Part shown: in pieces, positions 15,657-22,496 of the stretch
Numbering within the stretch: the stretch's first letter is position 1
Layout of the letters: every line of letters begins with the position of its first letter
Assembly (NCBI RefSeq): GCF_003977665.1
Contig: NZ_RYYV01000008.1
Location: forward strand, 62,001-126,000
Direction: 5' to 3'
Length of the DNA stretch: 64,000 nucleotides
DNA from: Dyella choica
GTDB taxonomy: Bacteria > Pseudomonadota > Gammaproteobacteria > Xanthomonadales > Rhodanobacteraceae
Translations under genes and position numbers: made by a program
Notes under the pieces: generated by a model
The model's input: only the letters and a program-made list of their open reading frames with translations
What the model was told of the DNA's origin: nothing
Database searches by the model: none

Positions 15657-15780
15657 GGATGGCTCCCGATTTGGATGACTCGATCACGTTCGCAAACGGC
15701 GGCAAGCATAGCCGTCTTGCGCAAAAAGCTCGTGGCCGCTTATGGCAGACTTGCCTTGCTCACCTGCCGCCTGCGCCGCC

Positions 15781-16836
15781 ATGCCAGCCCATCACTATAC
15801 CGGCCTTGCCGGCCAATCCTACGACCAACCCGCTCAGGCTGGCGTACTGCTTGTGAACCTGGGCACACCGGACGCACCTACGGCGCCGGCGCTACGCTCC
15901 TACCTGGCCGAATTCCTGGGCGATCCGCGCGTCATCGAGTATCCGCGCTGGCTGTGGTGGTTGATCCTGCACGGCGTCATCCTGCGCCACCGGCCGGCCC
16001 GTTCGGCGCATGCCTATGCGCGGGTTTGGACGCCTGAGGGTTCGCCGCTGCGGGTGGGTTCGGAAAAACTCGCCGCCGCCCTCCAGGCCAGGCTGAGCCG
16101 GAGCGCACCGGGACCCGTACGCGTTGGCCTGGCCATGCGTTACGGCAAGCCTTCGGTACGCGAACAGATCCAACAGATGCAGCGCGCAGGCGTGCGCCGA
16201 TTGCTGGTACTCCCGCTGTATCCCCAATACTCGGGCACCTCCACCGGCTCGGTGATCGACGCAGTGGCCGATACCTTCAGGCAACTGCGTTGGCCACCGG
16301 AACTGCGCATCATCAATGGCTACTACGACGATGCCGGGCATATCGATGCACTGGCACAATCGATCGAACGCTGGTGGGCCGAGCACGGCCGCGGGGACCG
16401 GCTGTTGCTGTCGTTTCATGGCATTCCGCAGCGCTACGTGGCAGCCGGCGACCCCTATCTGCATCAATGCCAGGCTACGGGGCGTTTGCTGCGCGAGCGA
16501 TTGGGGCTGGATGCCTCGCAACTGAGCATGAGCTTCCAGTCACGCGTAGGCCGTGAGCCATGGCTGCAGCCGTATACGGATGAGACCGTGCGTCGCTTCG
16601 CCGCTGAAGGCGTCCGGCGGCTGGACATCGCCTGCCCCGGCTTCGCGGTGGACTGCCTGGAAACGCTGGAAGAAATCGCCATGCAGAACGCCGAATTCTT
16701 CACCGGCGCTGGAGGCGAAGCACTACGCTACATTCCAGCCCTCAATGACAGCGATGCGCAGGTCGCCAACCTGGCTGCGCTGATCCAGCGGCATGCCCAC
16801 GGATGGCCGGAATTCACCTCCGGCGCAGCGGCATGA
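15781..16836 (+). CDS. hemH: Ferrochelatase
   Basis: This protein of about 351 residues inserts ferrous iron into protoporphyrin IX, the last step of protoheme synthesis. The N-terminal VLLVNLGTPDAP, the LLVLPLYPQYSGTSTGSV block, the catalytic-His motif LLSFHGIPQRY, and the CPGFAVDCLETLEE block are all present. Neither the ATG at 15781 nor the one at 15742 has a clear ribosome binding site; 15781 is chosen because it removes an atypical Cys/Ala-rich N-terminus. The end overlaps the start of the next hydrolase gene (ATGA), so the two are translated together. Confidence 0.95.
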   Translation: MPAHHYTGLAGQSYDQPAQAGVLLVNLGTPDAPTAPALRSYLAEFLGDPRVIEYPRWLWWLILHGVILRHRPARSAHAYARVWTPEGSPLRVGSEKLAAALQARLSRSAPGPVRVGLAMRYGKPSVREQIQQMQRAGVRRLLVLPLYPQYSGTSTGSVIDAVADTFRQLRWPPELRIINGYYDDAGHIDALAQSIERWWAEHGRGDRLLLSFHGIPQRYVAAGDPYLHQCQATGRLLRERLGLDASQLSMSFQSRVGREPWLQPYTDETVRRFAAEGVRRLDIACPGFAVDCLETLEEIAMQNAEFFTGAGGEALRYIPALNDSDAQVANLAALIQRHAHGWPEFTSGAAA

Positions 16837-17699
16837 ACGAGCACACTGCCGAAGCTGCGCCGGTCGAGCAGCGCATCGTTTTGTCGCAGCATCTTTCGCT
16901 TACGGCCTTGATCTGGGGCGACGCCGGCGCCCCTCCGCTGTTGGCTTTGCACGGCTGGCTGGACAACGCCGGCAGCTTCGCCCTGCTCGCGCCGAAACTA
17001 GCCAGGCGCTTTCGCGTCATCGCGCTGGAGCTGCCTGGACACGGGCATTCCGGCCATCTTCCCGCCGGCATCAGCTATCACTTCGTCGACTATGTAAGCG
17101 CGGTGCTCAGCGCCGCGGATGCGCTGGGGCTGGAGCGCTATACCCTGCTCGGCCATTCGCTAGGCGCAGGCATCGCCTCGCTTGCCGCTGCGGCCGTTCC
17201 GCAGCGCCTTGAACACCTGTTCCTGATCGAAGGACTGGGTCCGCTCGGCGATGACGGCACGCATACCTTGCGGCGCTTTCGCGATGCTTATGCCGCACCT
17301 GCGTCAAGCGGCAAGTCGCTGCGGGTGTTCGCGAACGTGAACCAGGCAGTCAGCACACGCACGCTGGCCAGCGGCCTGCGCGCGGACCTTGCTCGGCCGA
17401 TCGTGGAGCGTGGACTTGCCGGGATCGCGGGCGGCTACCGCTGGCGCAGCGATCCGCGTCTTACGCGCCCCAGCGCGCTGCGGCTCGCCGAAGAGCAGAT
17501 TCGTGCGCTGCTTGCGGGCATCGAGGCACCTACCTCATTGCTGCTCTCAAGACCAGTCACGCCCTATTTGCCCAGCGCAATGATGCAAGCGCGTGCCCGG
17601 CAGGTACCGAATATCGCCGTGACTCACCTGGACGGGGGGCATCATTTGCATCTGGAGCATCCTGACGTGGTAGCTGCATGGCTGCTCAGCACCTTGTAG
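16833..17699 (+). CDS. Alpha/beta hydrolase
   Basis: This 288-residue protein of the alpha/beta hydrolase fold shows the oxyanion strand LLALHGWLDN, the nucleophile elbow GHSLGAG with Ser109, and a C-terminal catalytic His in GGHHLHLEHP. The HGWLDN start is typical of serine-hydrolase-like proteins near MEST/SERHL in other organisms; the substrate is unknown. The ATG at 16833 overlaps the hemH stop, indicating translational coupling. The stop codon TAG lies within a REP-like hairpin that separates it from the convergent ABC transporter genes. Confidence 0.85.
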   Translation: MNEHTAEAAPVEQRIVLSQHLSLTALIWGDAGAPPLLALHGWLDNAGSFALLAPKLARRFRVIALELPGHGHSGHLPAGISYHFVDYVSAVLSAADALGLERYTLLGHSLGAGIASLAAAAVPQRLEHLFLIEGLGPLGDDGTHTLRRFRDAYAAPASSGKSLRVFANVNQAVSTRTLASGLRADLARPIVERGLAGIAGGYRWRSDPRLTRPSALRLAEEQIRALLAGIEAPTSLLLSRPVTPYLPSAMMQARARQVPNIAVTHLDGGHHLHLEHPDVVAAWLLSTL

Positions 17700-17723
17700 G
17701 CAGGGATGATTATCCCTGCCCAC
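17696..17723. repeat. REP-like single hairpin, copy 2
   Basis: GTAGGCAGGGATGATTATCC continues to CTGCCCAC and forms a hairpin with an 8-bp or longer stem. It is a diverged single unit of the family at 8311. It lies between two converging genes and includes the stop codon of the hydrolase, so it may act as a bidirectional transcript end. Confidence 0.65.
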
Positions 17724-17729
17724 GAAGCC

Positions 17730-18905
17730 TCAGGCTGAAATCGCCAACCGCTCAGACCGATACACCCAAGCCGTCAGCGCCATCGCCAACAGCGCCACCA
17801 CCAGTCCCGTTACAACGCAACTGGACAGTTGCACAGCCGTAACCTGCTCGCCGCGCAACAATTGCATGATGCCGACCTGCTGCCCAAGCAACGGCACGTA
17901 GAACATCCAATCCGCAATCTTCATCGGCGTCACGCTCAACAGCACCGACGGAAAGATCGGCACGATCATCAGCACCGACTGGTACGTCTGCGCCTCCCGA
18001 TAGCTCTTCGCGAAGGCCGATACCAGCGTCTGCAGGCACGCCAGCAGCATCACCAGCGGCAACATCATCAACAGCACCTGCGCGGCGAACGAAATGCCCA
18101 GGTCCATGCGCATGCCTAGCCGTTCGATGGGAATCAGTTTGCCGCAGAAGCCGAATGCGACGACGCAAATCAGCAGGCTGACCAGGGAGAACAGGCAGGT
18201 CGCAGCCAGCTTGCCCAGCAAGATCTTCCAGCGCGGCACCGGATTGGCGAACAGCGGCTCCAGCGACTGCCGTTCTCGCTCGCCGGCGGTGAGATCGATC
18301 GCCAGGTACATGCCGCCCATGAATACCGTGAGCACGAAGAAATACGGCAGCATCCCGAACATCAGTCCGGCACGCGACTGCGGCGTGGACTGGTCTCGCT
18401 CGTCAACCGCCACGGGCGCCATCATGGCGGGTGCAAGGCCGCGCGCCACCAGCCGCATTACGCCCTGGCGCCGGCTGTAGTTTTCCAGCATGCCCTTCAC
18501 GCGCCCAACCGTACTAGCGGTGTCGCTCTGCGAGGAATCGTAGATCAGCTCCACCTGCGAGGCCTGGCCCTTGCGCCAGGCCTCGCCAAATCCTTGCGGA
18601 ATGCGCACGACGACATCGGCGTCGCGGTTGCGGACCGCGCTTTCCGGATCGGCGATGGCCGGTTGCGGCAGCAAGCCCTGCTGCTTGAGCGCATCCATCA
18701 GGTTCGGCGCATATTGCGCGCCGATCACCGGCACCTTGACGGGATGATCGGCCTTGTTCAACTCACGCGTGAGTACCACGTTCATGATCATGATGAAAAT
18801 GACCGGGCCTAGCAGCGGCCCCAGGATCAAGGCGCTCATCATGGTGCGCCGGTCACGCAGGTTTTCCTTCACTTCCTTGAGAAACACCGTCAGCGTGGTT
18901 TTCAT
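17730..18905 (-). CDS. NatB-like ABC-2 type transporter permease
   Basis: This 391-residue permease has one N-terminal membrane helix, a large extracytoplasmic loop of about 130 residues, and about five further helices from residue 185 on. The LTAGERERQSLEPLFANP sequence after the second helix is characteristic of NatB/ABC-2 permeases. In Bacillus NatAB exports sodium, but relatives export other substrates, so the cargo is unknown. It overlaps the NatA-like ATPase gene by four bases and is the last gene of a six-gene minus-strand operon that begins near 22097. Confidence 0.88.
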   Translation of the reverse strand: MKTTLTVFLKEVKENLRDRRTMMSALILGPLLGPVIFIMIMNVVLTRELNKADHPVKVPVIGAQYAPNLMDALKQQGLLPQPAIADPESAVRNRDADVVVRIPQGFGEAWRKGQASQVELIYDSSQSDTASTVGRVKGMLENYSRRQGVMRLVARGLAPAMMAPVAVDERDQSTPQSRAGLMFGMLPYFFVLTVFMGGMYLAIDLTAGERERQSLEPLFANPVPRWKILLGKLAATCLFSLVSLLICVVAFGFCGKLIPIERLGMRMDLGISFAAQVLLMMLPLVMLLACLQTLVSAFAKSYREAQTYQSVLMIVPIFPSVLLSVTPMKIADWMFYVPLLGQQVGIMQLLRGEQVTAVQLSSCVVTGLVVALLAMALTAWVYRSERLAISA

Positions 18906-19636
18906 GCCGCCAGCCCCTCTTCGCTGCCGATGATCTTCACGAAGGCATCCTCCAGATTGGTCTCACCGGTCTGTGCACGCAATGCGTCGGGTGTTGCATC
19001 GGCCACTACGCGGCCATGCGCGATCACCACGATGCGATCGCACAGCGCCGCCACCTCTTGCATGATGTGGCTGGAAAACAGCACGCAGCGACCCTCTTCC
19101 TTCAGCTGCCGCATGAACCGGCGCATGCTGCGCGTCGCCATCACATCGAGGCCGTTGGTGGGCTCATCCAGGATCACATTCCTGGGATCGTGCACCAGCG
19201 CCCGGGCAATCGCCGTCTTGACCCGCTGCCCTTGCGAATAGCCCTCGGTGCGGCGGTCCGCGATGTCCGCCATGTCCAGCGCAGTGATCAACTGCTTGCA
19301 GCGCAACCGGATGAGTGATTCATCCATGCCTTGCAGCCTGGCAAAGTAGTCGATGTTCTCGCGTGCGGTAAGCCGCTTGTACAGACCACGAGCATCGGGC
19401 AGCACGCCGAGCTTGCGACGGACTGCGAGGGCGTCTTTCGCCACATCGATGCCGTCGACCAGCACCTGTCCTTGGTCCGGCTGCATCAGCGTGTACAGCA
19501 TGCGCAACGTGGTGGTTTTGCCGGCGCCGTTGGGACCCAGAAGCCCGGTGATTTCACCATCGCGGGCCGTAAAGCTCACGCCGTCCACAGCTTTCACTTC
19601 TGCGAAATGCTTGTGCAGATCCCTCACTTCGATCAT
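18902..19636 (-). CDS. NatA-like ABC transporter ATP-binding protein
   Basis: This 244-residue ATPase has the Walker A GPNGAGKTTT, a Q-loop region at LGVLPDARGLYKRLTARE, the signature YSQGQRVKTAIA (in place of the more usual LSGGQ), the Walker B NVILDEPTNGLD and the switch His in SSHIMQE. The DARGLY and YSQGQ features fit the NatA sodium-exporter subfamily. The start overlaps the stop of the S33 peptidase gene, and the end overlaps natB, so all three are translated as a unit. Confidence 0.9.
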   Translation of the reverse strand: MIEVRDLHKHFAEVKAVDGVSFTARDGEITGLLGPNGAGKTTTLRMLYTLMQPDQGQVLVDGIDVAKDALAVRRKLGVLPDARGLYKRLTARENIDYFARLQGMDESLIRLRCKQLITALDMADIADRRTEGYSQGQRVKTAIARALVHDPRNVILDEPTNGLDVMATRSMRRFMRQLKEEGRCVLFSSHIMQEVAALCDRIVVIAHGRVVADATPDALRAQTGETNLEDAFVKIIGSEEGLAA

Positions 19637-21198
19637 GGCGAAGCTCCGTTGAAATCGATGAACGCCGGCGTCCCCCCCAGCTTGTCCAGGCAGCTGGCGT
19701 CGAGCGCCTTGGGATCGGGTTGGTCAATGAACCTGCCGAGCAATTGCGGCATGCAGCCGCGGCCAAGCAGGGAATGTCCCTGCCCCATGAAGACCAGTTG
19801 CCGCGCATTCGACAAACCGGGCAGGATTAGCTTGCCATAGCGTGGCGGCGTGACCGGGTCCAGTTCGCCGGAAAGCATCAGGGTCGGCTTGTTGCTCTTC
19901 AGCGCCGCGTGGAAATCGTCCGGGCGCGCGCCATGCGGCCAGATCTCGCATTGCGCCTTGATCGCATCGATCAGATGATTGCCCAGGATGGTGTTCTGGT
20001 CTTGCGGACGCGGCGCAAGCAAGTCGGCATCCTCGCTACAGATCACGCTCATGGACATGCCGTTGTTCATGTCCCCGCTGAGATCGCCGCTGAGGATCTT
20101 GGCCTGCCCCAGCAAGGGGCCAACGTCGCCATGCGCCGCGGCGTTGATCGACAGCGGCAGCAGCGCCGCCGTTTCCGGCTCGTACGCGAACATGCGCACC
20201 ACGCTGGCGAGCGCAAACTCGCTCAAGGGGCGCTCCACGGTCTGGTAGGTTTCCGGATCGCGAAAGCTGACCTTGTGCGGATTCGCTCGCAAGGCATCGC
20301 GCAGCTGATACAACGTCTGCATTGAATCGCCGAAACGCTGCTTGCAGGCGGCCGCTGCCATGCAGCTGGCAAAATTCTTCTTCAGCGCGTCGTCGAGGTC
20401 GGTGGCGAAGTCCTCGCCCAGCACCGCCTGGTTCGGCACGACCGAATCGAGCACGACACTGCGCACGCTACCGGGATAATGCTTGAGAAAATGCTGCGCC
20501 ATGCGTGTGCCGTACGACACGCCGACCAGGTCCAACGGGGGCGACCCCAGCGCCCTGCGCACATCTTCCAGATCCTGCACGGCGATGGTGGTGGTGTAGT
20601 AGCGCGGATCGGCCTTTTGCTTTACTTCGTTCAAGCACGCGGCGACGTCCTTGCGGATCTTGTCGAGGTCGAGCGTCAGCGCATTCTGGTCGGACGCTTG
20701 CTCCGCAGTCTTGCAGCTCAACGGATTAGAGCCACCGGTGCCGCGCTGATCCAGCAACAGCAAGTCGTGATGCTTGCGCACTTCGGCAAACGCGGGCGCC
20801 TCCAGCACCCAAGCCTCGGTTGCCGCTTCGCCGGGACCGCCTGCGAGCAGCGTCACCACGTCCGGCTCTGGCACTTGCGCGTCGCTGCGCACGATCGCGA
20901 GCTTCAGACCGATGCGCCGACCATGCGGATCATCACGATTTTCCGGCACTTCAAACCTGGTGCACCACGCCTGCGCTCGCGCACCGCTACCGGGGCGCGC
21001 CAGTTCGCACGGCGTAAATGTAAGTGATCCACGCCGCCAAGGACGCACGGGCTGGGACGGTTGCTTGGCTTGGACGGGTGCCACATCCGCATTTGTGGTG
21101 CCCGACTTCTCAGCACCATGCCAATGTTGGTACGCCAGAACGCCCAACACGATCACCACAGCGGTCACGCGCAAAACGGTTCTTGCCTTCAAGGCCAT
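19633..21198 (-). CDS. Membrane-anchored S33-family peptidase (TAP-like alpha/beta hydrolase)
   Basis: This 521-residue protein starts with an uncleaved-looking membrane anchor (about residues 6-22). The alpha/beta hydrolase domain follows: oxyanion region TLLAGGPGEAA, LLLLDQRGTGGSNPL, the nucleophile GVSYGTRMA with Ser at about 228, and the catalytic Asp and His in SGELDPVTPP and GQGHSLLG. The last part matches the TAP C-terminal domain of tripeptidyl aminopeptidases. It should act in the periplasm on short peptides. The ATG at 21198 has a strong AAGGAG site that overlaps the regulator gene's stop. It is coupled to the NatA-like ATPase gene. Confidence 0.87.
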   Translation of the reverse strand: MALKARTVLRVTAVVIVLGVLAYQHWHGAEKSGTTNADVAPVQAKQPSQPVRPWRRGSLTFTPCELARPGSGARAQAWCTRFEVPENRDDPHGRRIGLKLAIVRSDAQVPEPDVVTLLAGGPGEAATEAWVLEAPAFAEVRKHHDLLLLDQRGTGGSNPLSCKTAEQASDQNALTLDLDKIRKDVAACLNEVKQKADPRYYTTTIAVQDLEDVRRALGSPPLDLVGVSYGTRMAQHFLKHYPGSVRSVVLDSVVPNQAVLGEDFATDLDDALKKNFASCMAAAACKQRFGDSMQTLYQLRDALRANPHKVSFRDPETYQTVERPLSEFALASVVRMFAYEPETAALLPLSINAAAHGDVGPLLGQAKILSGDLSGDMNNGMSMSVICSEDADLLAPRPQDQNTILGNHLIDAIKAQCEIWPHGARPDDFHAALKSNKPTLMLSGELDPVTPPRYGKLILPGLSNARQLVFMGQGHSLLGRGCMPQLLGRFIDQPDPKALDASCLDKLGGTPAFIDFNGASP

Positions 21199-21205
21199 GG
21201 CTCCT

Positions 21206-21403
21206 TCACTCCTCCCCAGGCACAAAAATCATTTCGATCGGCATGCCGAACAGGCGTGCGATCTTGAACGCCAACGGCAGGCTCGGATCGTATTTTCCGG
21301 TCTCGATAGCGTTGACGGTTTGCCGCGACACATCCAGTTTTTGCGCAAGTTCGGCTTGCGACCAGCCGCGCTCGCTGCGCAAGTCACGCACAGAGTTGTT
21401 CAT
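21206..21403 (-). CDS. Small XRE-family helix-turn-helix regulator
   Basis: This 65-residue protein consists almost entirely of a Cro/CI-type HTH: RSERGWSQAELAQKLDVSRQ followed by TVNAIETGKYDPSLPLAFKIA. Such minimal XRE proteins are commonly coded beside a small membrane protein, as here. No ribosome binding site is seen; its ATG lies five bases after the membrane protein's stop, so translation is probably coupled. It is the best candidate to bind the two palindromic operators at 22114-22175 and to control its own operon. Confidence 0.92.
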   Translation of the reverse strand: MNNSVRDLRSERGWSQAELAQKLDVSRQTVNAIETGKYDPSLPLAFKIARLFGMPIEMIFVPGEE

Positions 21404-21408
21404 GCGAC

Positions 21409-22011
21409 TTATTCACGACGGTATTTGCGCTTATACGCATGCATGGCAATGAACACGAGGCCTCCGACGACGAATCCCCCGCCTGTTCCATACACGAATC
21501 CCAACTGGCGTTCACCCGTATGCCCCTTAAGCAACGCGGCAGCAAGAATCAGAACGACACCAAACAATACGAGCAGCATGAACGGCTTGATGCTGAGTTC
21601 TTCTTCGCACTGCATGCTTCCTCCATAACTGCGCATCAGCCTCCAGCGGACCAGGCCGTAGCAGAACACCACCGCTGGATACACCAGCAGCAGGCTTGAT
21701 CCATCCAGCTTCACCACGCCGGCGGTGGCCAGAAAACCCGCAACGAAGGTCAGCGCGCTCACCACCGCTGTCGCCGTGCTTAGCGCAACCAAATGGGTAT
21801 GGCGTTCGAACTCATCGCTGTTGCGGATGAGCCGCGCCATTTGGGCGATGACATAGAGCACCGGCGCAATCGGCGCCATGGTCAGCAGAACCTTGAGCGG
21901 CAAGCTGGCTGTTTTGGCCACCAGCGGCCAGACGAGCAACATGAAAGCGGTATAGATCGCCATCGCGACCACTACCCGCAACTGGTATTGCTTCATTGAA
22001 AAGCGCGGCAT
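21409..22011 (-). CDS. Four- to six-helix membrane protein paired with the XRE regulator
   Basis: This 200-residue membrane protein of unknown function has hydrophobic segments at about residues 13-30, 36-54, 75-95, 101-120, 140-160 and 170-190. Charged motifs RNSDEFERHTHL and RSYGGSMQCEEE lie between helices and face the cytoplasm by the positive-inside rule. The ATG at 22011 follows GAGGG. The family is recurrently found immediately upstream of small XRE regulators; its role, perhaps sensing or holding the regulator at the membrane, is not known. A 24-codon leader reading frame precedes it. Confidence 0.8.
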   Translation of the reverse strand: MPRFSMKQYQLRVVVAMAIYTAFMLLVWPLVAKTASLPLKVLLTMAPIAPVLYVIAQMARLIRNSDEFERHTHLVALSTATAVVSALTFVAGFLATAGVVKLDGSSLLLVYPAVVFCYGLVRWRLMRSYGGSMQCEEELSIKPFMLLVLFGVVLILAAALLKGHTGERQLGFVYGTGGGFVVGGLVFIAMHAYKRKYRRE

Positions 22012-22022
22012 GGCCTGAACCC

Positions 22023-22097
22023 TCAAGCTGCCCAGGAGAACGGCCGGTCGTGCAAGACGGCCTTGTGGTCGGCACGGGTCTTGCTCCGCTGGCTCAT
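22023..22097 (-). CDS. 24-residue leader peptide (putative)
   Basis: A short reading frame starts at the ATG at 22097 with a good GGGGAG site at proper spacing. It encodes a basic peptide beginning MSQRSKTRADHKAV and ending FSWAA. It is the first reading frame after the predicted transcription start, and its stop lies in the ribosome binding site of the membrane protein gene, so its translation could influence that start. No similarity is recognised. Because it is so short it could be chance, but the strong start site argues for translation. Confidence 0.5.
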   Translation of the reverse strand: MSQRSKTRADHKAVLHDRPFSWAA

Positions 22098-22113
22098 CGT
22101 TACTCCCCGGTGA

Positions 22114-22131
22114 TGTAAAGCGTGCTTGACA
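22114..22131. promoter_or_regulatory. Operator O1 of the XRE operon
   Basis: TGTAAAGCGTGCTTGACA is an imperfect palindrome; the ideal form TGTAAAGCATGCTTTACA is fully symmetric. It covers the predicted transcription start on the minus strand. A second copy lies 44 bases away. Confidence 0.75.
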
Positions 22132-22134
22132 TAA

Positions 22135-22163
22135 AGACTACGCAGCCCGTGGCTTTGTGTCAA
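22135..22163 (-). promoter_or_regulatory. Predicted sigma-70 promoter of the XRE operon
   Basis: On the minus strand a perfect -35 TTGACA (22163-22158) is followed, after 17 bases, by a fair -10 TAGTCT (22140-22135). The expected start near 22127 falls in operator O1, while the -35 lies in operator O2. It drives leftward transcription toward the leader peptide at 22097. Confidence 0.6.
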
Positions 22164-22175
22164 GCATGCTTTACA
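22158..22175. promoter_or_regulatory. Operator O2 of the XRE operon
   Basis: TGTCAAGCATGCTTTACA differs from the symmetric ideal at one position and contains the perfect 10-bp palindrome AAGCATGCTT. It overlaps the -35 box. Together with O1 the centres are 44 bases apart, close to four helical turns, so bound dimers would lie on the same DNA face. Confidence 0.75.
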
Positions 22176-22496
22176 AGATGGCGGCTTGAGCATGTGACTC
22201 GCGCGATGCACTGACGTTGCACGTCACATTTTGACGGGACCCCGCCCAGTCGGGAGAAACAGTTCACACTTTTTCCCGACATATGTAGGGGAAAGTTTTC
22301 TAGGCGTGTAAGCCATGTATAGGAAATAGGCCAGATTTCCCTGACAATGTGATGGGGGTCACGCTTTGGCCTGAATGTTGCTCACTCGCCTCGCAAGGCG
22401 TGGGCCTGCCCGTGAGGGGGCGGGAAAACGCCGGCCCACTGCAAGCGCTTTACCGAAAGCCCCGTAATTCACCTACCCGTTAACCAGGGAATCCGC
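22176..22496. other. Intergenic region before the fimbrial operon
   Basis: This gap carries no gene that I can support. Besides the CRP-like site at 22348-22363 it has a small hairpin CGCCTCGCAAGGCG near 22388 and a T/A-richer stretch (about 22260-22345) where the fimbrial promoter probably lies. No clear -35/-10 pair could be fixed by eye. Confidence 0.5.
22348..22363. promoter_or_regulatory. CRP/Clp-type binding site upstream of the pilin gene
   Basis: TGTGA-N6-TCACG matches the CRP consensus TGTGA-N6-TCACA with one mismatch. Xanthomonads use the CRP homologue Clp, known there as a regulator of surface and virulence functions and sensitive to c-di-GMP. The site lies 134 bases before the pilin start, so activation or repression are both possible. 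Confidence 0.6.

Follow-up and report, generated by a model that had tools for sequence, protein, structure and literature searches.

A Twin-Operator Promoter and a Predicted CylR2-Like Switch Preceding a Conserved Hydrolase-Exporter Operon in Dyella choica

Genes and Proteins of the Locus

The S33-NatAB operon of Dyella choica is a minus-strand gene cluster that encodes a small membrane protein (MP), a small DNA-binding protein of the XRE family (XRE), an S33/TAP-like alpha/beta hydrolase (S33), and the ATPase and permease of a NatAB-type ABC-2 exporter. It lies in the window analyzed here, a stretch of 64,000 nucleotides that corresponds to positions 62001-126000 of its contig in a genome of 5.49 Mb. 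Six minus-strand frames span positions 17730-22097, and two 18-bp palindromes are located 5' of them. In the 5' to 3' direction, a 24-codon leader open reading frame (ORF; 22023..22097) is followed by the genes for MP (21409..22011), XRE (21206..21403), S33 (19633..21198), the NatA-like ABC ATPase (18902..19636; 244 aa), and the NatB-like ABC-2 permease (17730..18905; 391 aa). The junctions between these frames are gaps of 11, 5, and 7 nt followed by two overlaps of 4 nt each. An earlier, sequence-only reading of this DNA had described a tightly spaced six-gene minus-strand cluster behind a twin-operator promoter; the ORF coordinates and junctions bear out the cluster, and palindromes at 22158-22175 and 22114-22131 bear out the promoter.

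MP is a predicted sensor of 200 aa when read from its ATG, with a 205-aa form from a TTG start being possible, and it has six predicted helices. A motif, SDE(L/F)E(Q/R), follows helix 2, and D66-E67 are invariant within the SDELE(Q/R)R loop; by the positive-inside rule, this loop between helices 2 and 3 would be cytoplasmic. MP matches no Pfam family above cut-off, and three MP relatives match none at all. Its nearest named relatives are found in Dyella acidisoli, D. nitratireducens, D. flagellata, and D. lipolytica. Pfam support in the operon comes from HTH_3, Abhydrolase_1/TAP-like, ABC_tran, and ABC2_membrane_3. The XRE protein is a CylR2-like predicted repressor of 65 aa that matches the CylR2 structures 1utx/2xiu with an E-value of 9e-13 over residues 3-60 (58 residues, ungapped). 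Its closest solved relative is PDB entry 9k3w, a 65-residue "Transcriptional regulator, PbsX family" (E 5.9e-23).

The S33 hydrolase (521 aa) is predicted to be exported and carries an N-terminal signal anchor. Its GxSxG serine, DPVTP aspartate, and GQGH histidine motifs are all present, and the triad Ser228-Asp447-His475 as well as ten cysteines are invariant in 17 diverse rows of the alignment. Both the Abhydrolase_1 and the TAP-like Pfam scores are above cut-off. The best solved match of the S33 profile is Hip1/carboxylesterase A (5bkm; E 2.7e-39, positions 33-467 of 497), the Rv2224c protein of Mycobacterium tuberculosis. The protein had been called an aminopeptidase on first reading, a label that calls for correction: it falls below the NCBIfam cut-offs for prolyl/proline iminopeptidases (30.9 vs 259.75 bits for TIGR01249 and 36.2 vs 167.65 bits for TIGR01250), and the Hip1 type is closest among solved structures. 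The description of S33 as anchored agrees with Dyella's family, where simple hydropathy and inspection by eye place a hydrophobic N-terminal segment near residues 5-23; elsewhere, many N-termini look like cleavable or lipoprotein signals by the same approach. The adjacent ABC ATPase and ABC-2 permease have the domain make-up of a NatAB exporter. Against NF041647 (ABC_perm_CPBP), the permease scores 244 bits with a cut-off of 435 and is hence not a member.

The Twin Operator and Promoter Geometry

The two palindromes frame a promoter on the minus strand. Operator 1, TGTAAAGCATGCTTGACA, occupies 22158..22175 and terminates in the -35 hexamer TTGACA (22158-22163). A -10 element, TAGTCT, follows at 22135..22140 after a 17-bp spacer, and operator 2, TGTCAAGCACGCTTTACA, lies just 3' of it at 22114..22131, 44 bp from operator 1 measured start to start. 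TAGTCT agrees with TATAAT at 3 of 6 positions and is absent from the list of a consensus promoter scan.

The operator pattern TGTMAAGNNNNCTTKACA, which was derived from the window and its nearest relatives before being tested and accepts either G or T at the deciding base, has exactly two matches in the 5.49-Mb genome, both at this promoter, with none for the reversed control. Among the 61 genomes of an order-level sample (the D. choica genome itself plus 15 genus, 21 family, and 24 order members), the pattern was found in 38 and the reversed control in one. We then compared 60 distinct promoters, with sites matched leaving the outermost bases free. In 59 of the 60, TTGACA forms the end of operator 1, and the corresponding base of operator 2 is mixed (G in 36, T in 24); as this base is fixed in one operator and mixed in the other, the -35 element appears to be anchored inside operator 1. 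TANNNT occurs 17-18 bp past TTGACA in 47/60 promoters, compared with a mean of 0.9 and a maximum of 6 in 2000 spacer shuffles, and the distance from operator 1 to operator 2 is 42-47 bp with a mode of 44. Because the operators overlap the -35 element and flank the -10 element, repression by promoter occlusion is predicted; a repressor bound to either operator would be expected to block RNA polymerase.

Single sites of the operator type also occur elsewhere. Single TGTCAAGNNNNCTTGACA sites are found near relaxase-like genes (named by eye) in four genera (L210, L211, L213, and L186) without a link to XRE, and these may possibly constitute a separate regulatory or transfer site. In a Dyella relative (G015, locus L214), a single exact operator lies 94 bp before an ECF sigma factor-like gene, also named by eye, which is a possible further target of the switch.

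Conservation of the Hydrolase-Exporter Set

Matches to S33 at E<=0.001 were obtained in 59 of the 61 genomes of the order-level sample. The best place in each of 57 relatives was taken as the order locus, excluding G052 and G054 (unmatched) and G060 (a weak match, 4.9e-30). Of these 57 loci, 56 retain the gene order S33-NatA-NatB. The exception (G002, locus L045) is a genus member with a 3.5-Mb genome in which S33, NatA, and NatB are decayed and no match to MP or XRE remains; an array of 114-bp repeats encoding a repetitive protein lies just upstream of the decayed genes. A second set of named loci comprises the best 80 of 495 and overlaps the order set (L132, for example, is G001); in this set, 73 loci extend 3400 nt or more rightward from the S33 start, and every one of them has NatA and NatB. 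By gene order, S33-NatAB is thus a near-universal three-gene set of the order Xanthomonadales. At the class level, 18 of 274 genomes match S33 at E<=1e-20, its own genome and two order members included. Seventeen further places were obtained, 14 of them with enough sequence, and NatA-NatB is present in nine of the 14; the five loci lacking it are weak S33 matches of 83-134 bits. Sixteen class-level loci extend far enough upstream to reveal the MP-XRE switch, and all of them lack it.

The linkage of S33-NatAB to the XRE pair, proposed in the sequence-only reading, recurs in relatives: the five-gene order MP-XRE-S33-NatA-NatB is found in 36/57 order loci, and MP-XRE-S33 also in 28/80 named loci.

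This conservation bears on two simpler accounts of the locus. In one, the operon encodes a NatAB-type exporter of sodium or drugs whose neighbors are incidental. The NatA and NatB domain make-up would suit such a pump, yet S33 stands upstream of NatA in 56/57 order loci and in 73/73 named loci with enough sequence; this constancy means that S33 is not incidental, and we consider the account very improbable. In the other, the locus is a toxin-antitoxin or anti-phage module, as the small XRE gene adjoining a membrane protein gene would allow. PADLOC models do match XRE, S33, and the ATPase (best matches HTH_VI at 1.1e-13, the "TAP-like protein" C3a206 at 1.8e-23, and mad3 at 1.8e-28), but these matches reflect general helix-turn-helix, hydrolase, and ABC domains, MP and NatB match no PADLOC model at E<=0.001, and almost all genomes sampled from the order retain S33-NatAB, so that this account can hardly be right. 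A defense system was set aside because the PADLOC matches arise only through general domains.

The Leader Frame and Internal Junctions

The 24-codon leader frame encodes an unconserved peptide and would serve translational coupling at most. A clear ATG leader ORF stands at the equivalent place in 7 of 15 genus members (its own included), two more have only an internal ATG, and the leader peptides are dissimilar by eye; in G004 and G011, the MP start codon lies only 18 nt 3' of the second palindrome. Counting the leader among the genes of the operon, as had been done at first, is therefore not supported by its occurrence in 7/15 members with dissimilar peptides. A conserved signal in the form of the leader peptide is likewise ruled out by the variation of its sequence and presence across the genus.

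Junctions of at most 11 nt leave no space for separate promoters between the genes. The consensus promoter scan, which also misses the operon's own promoter, gave no coding-strand site between the genes; its one promoter-like site is on the opposite strand and at chance level (shuffle mean 1.1).

The leader also bears on the idea that the operon confers immunity or self-protection against a bacteriocin or membrane-active peptide of the same or neighboring bacteria, with MP as the immunity protein. The resemblance of XRE to CylR2 is in keeping with this idea, for which the logic of SdpI/SdpR offers a parallel. There is, however, no conserved peptide gene, the leader varies or is absent between species, and the near-universal S33-NatAB set is too broad for a narrow immunity trait; on balance, the idea appears improbable.

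Presence and Separability of the MP-XRE Switch

MP and XRE lie upstream of S33 in 36/57 order loci and 28/80 named loci and are always paired; MP was not found in loci lacking XRE in either set. The switch is concentrated in the family of Dyella, being present in 32 of 36 own-family loci vs 4 of 21 in the rest of the order. Where at least 1200 nt of upstream sequence is available, the operator accompanies it closely. Fifty-six of the 57 order loci qualify, and among them the 35 with XRE comprise 31 with twin exact sites, two with one, and two with degenerate sites only; the 21 without XRE hold no exact site. Similarly, 74 of the 80 named loci qualify: the 28 with XRE comprise 26 with twin sites, one with a single site, and one with no exact site, and no exact site occurs in the 46 that lack XRE. 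In G030, whose XRE-containing locus reaches only 1063 nt upstream, an exact site is accompanied by a second site with a single mismatch.

The history of this association was followed on an S33 tree of 136 rows, which excluded G002, duplicate proteins, weak matches, and rows whose upstream sequence fell short of 900 nt. XRE presence changes 13 times on the tree, nine of these changes being forced by starred branches, and the operator (at most one mismatch) tracks XRE in 8-9 of 9 independent pairs, and no pair contradicts the association (sign test, median p 0.008). On the evidence of these comparisons, MP, XRE, and the operator form a separable module that is gained and lost as a unit. Upstream of S33 operons that lack XRE, no common alternative regulator was recognized; the neighbors there included a YadG-like ABC gene (by eye).

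Some modules vary in composition or setting. Two MP genes, of about 200 and about 135 residues, precede XRE in L082, L030, L031, and L088; the form of about 135 residues stops short of the last two helices, and the two proteins are possible paired sensors. In L215 (G038), a stand-alone MP-XRE module with operator is convergent to a pyroglutamyl-peptidase-like gene (by eye).

A Second Hydrolase behind the Operators

The operators are also associated with a second alpha/beta hydrolase, ABH2, which has an apparent export signal by eye. At E<=1e-40, five of the 61 genomes encode ABH2, and in each of them two exact sites immediately precede its gene. In G022, G026, and G034, it is the first gene of the S33 operon, and the operons of the named loci L088, L090, and L092 likewise begin with it; in G012 and G035, it is located behind an additional twin operator far from the S33 operon.

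When two overlapping sets, of 398 phylum and 369 class genomes, were searched for the twin-operator pattern, seven and five genomes matched, respectively, the D. choica genome and order members included, and the reversed control matched none. Outside the order, G513 and G326 hold MP-XRE, in whose vicinity no relative of S33, NatAB, or ABH2 was found, and G318 has an ABH2-like start behind the twin operator, where the contig ends. G608 (Massilia forsythiae) has the arrangement twin operator-MP-XRE-ABH2 with an ABH2 that is 42% identical. In the GTDB family of G608, ABH2 homologs are present in 6 of 60 genomes (E<=1e-40), and five of these six show this arrangement, at a site-to-site distance of 40 bp; L268 and L270, two of those five, each have one site that deviates by a single mismatch. 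A plasmid collection yielded one distant ABH2 homolog (Methylosinus).

These observations can be set against a housekeeping role, in which S33 and NatAB would constitutively process and transport envelope peptides or lipids, and MP-XRE would be a level-keeping autoregulator with no outside signal. The presence of S33-NatAB in 56/57 order loci and in all nine class-level loci with a strong S33 match and enough sequence fits such a role, as does the lack of the switch in all 16 class-level loci with enough upstream sequence. A plain autorepressor, however, would need no MP, yet MP is present in 36/36 order and 28/28 named XRE-containing loci (overlapping sets), and the switch recurs with a different hydrolase in the Massilia relatives. 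We therefore consider a purely housekeeping role rather unlikely.

Proposed Mechanism and Its Significance

We lean towards the reading that the operon is autorepressed, with XRE acting on the two palindromes, MP lifting repression upon a signal, and the S33 hydrolase together with the ABC-2 pump destroying and expelling that signal. In this scheme, the CylR2-like XRE would sit on both palindromes and repress the promoter of its own operon. When MP meets the signal, repression would be lifted, MP relaying the signal to XRE perhaps through the SDELE loop. Derepression would switch on the predicted exported S33-type hydrolase and the predicted ABC-2 pump, and these two products would complete the feedback by removing the inducer. 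A membrane-active peptide or another amphiphile is the most probable inducer, and the likeness of XRE to CylR2 strengthens a peptide-sensing reading. The autorepression scheme draws support, at the level of sequence, from the twin operator with its promoter elements, the close association of that operator with the MP-XRE pair, the constant S33-NatA-NatB order, and the operators before a second hydrolase. The best reading of these patterns is that the exported hydrolase would be the core output of an inducible, autorepressed envelope response, joined in Xanthomonadales by the ABC-2 pump as a further output. The overall interpretation offered in the sequence-only reading survives in part: its operon linkage and the lack of internal promoters hold up, and its leader peptide and its aminopeptidase label give way.

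A broader proposal, which we put forward tentatively, is that a transferable membrane-signal cassette of twin operator, MP, and CylR2-like XRE, not encountered in the literature searched, may have acquired exported alpha/beta hydrolases on several occasions, both in Xanthomonadales and in the Massilia relatives, the hydrolase in each case destroying the signal that MP detects. Such a cassette would amount to a self-terminating envelope alarm for which three proteins suffice.

Several observations weigh against the autorepression scheme. XRE is missing from 21/57 order loci (one being the decayed G002) though S33-NatAB is near-universal, and a set that is near-universal and mostly switchless outside Dyella's own family suggests a general envelope task rather than niche detoxification. 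G038, G058, G049, and G044 hold the MP-XRE module elsewhere (L215, L216, L264, and L217, respectively), with one exact site or near-matches only, and the S33 operon of the same genomes is siteless; the two parts are therefore separable. The twin-operator MP-XRE modules of L258 and L261 stand alone, relatives of S33, NatAB, and ABH2 being absent from their surroundings. Exact single sites occur apart from XRE, such as the four near relaxase-like genes, and the 3.8-kb locus of the ABH2 homolog in G833 contains no switch and no site. The structural model of MP is also weak, with a predicted local distance difference test score (pLDDT) of 67 and a predicted template modeling score (pTM) of 0.48.

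If the autorepression scheme is true, the switch would likely let cells clear harmful envelope molecules on demand. MP-XRE-ABH2 would represent a minimal three-gene form, which is easily tested. The system would also be an apparent proteobacterial counterpart of CylR1/CylR2 with a defined operator and promoter geometry, coupled in Xanthomonadales to a conserved hydrolase-exporter set for which no described function was found in the literature searched.

Neighboring Features

Directly 3' of the last gene, a 9-bp inverted repeat on the minus strand (17699..17720; GGCAGGGAT-AATC-ATCCCTGCC, with a 4-nt loop) is a possible transcript end that has no T run; it is not among the calls of a terminator scan. 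The convergent neighbor at 16803-17699 is another alpha/beta hydrolase frame, adjoined by a ferrochelatase-like frame at 15742-16836 (both named by eye). On the other side, between the operon and a fimbrial gene (22497+, by eye), positions 22250-22420 of the window contain a GTGA-N6-TCAC sequence resembling a CRP/Clp site together with a GC-rich hairpin, both of which look kept in many genus members by eye.

Comparison with Known Systems

The closest parallel is CylR1/CylR2 of the Enterococcus faecalis cytolysin operon. According to a review (PMC3709268), CylR2 is encoded alongside a suspected membrane protein, the genes under its control serve to modify, secrete, and process a peptide, and the way in which CylR1 relays the peptide signal to CylR2 is not understood. 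CylR2 and the XRE protein are of the same type, at 65/66 residues, and the small membrane protein gene adjoins XRE in 36/36 order and 28/28 named loci that contain XRE. MP has six predicted helices vs three predicted for CylR1. In E. faecalis, the regulators are divergent from their targets, whereas here they lie on the same strand in one cluster with two operators, and no toxin genes are seen.

The output genes also have known relatives. S33 shares common Ser-Asp-His motifs with Hip1/TAP-like S33 hydrolases and differs in being co-encoded with an ABC-2 exporter and a membrane switch, its activity being predicted from sequence. The predicted exporter has the domain make-up of NatAB-type ABC-2 exporters. 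NF041647 takes its name from a permease that includes an intramembrane protease portion, whereas the hydrolase here is a separate protein. Among the papers listed by a literature search that covered few subscription journals, none was recognized as treating the S33-NatAB operon or its operator. The CylR1/CylR2-like logic is already known; the new element appears to be the recurrent tie of such a switch to hydrolases with export signals.

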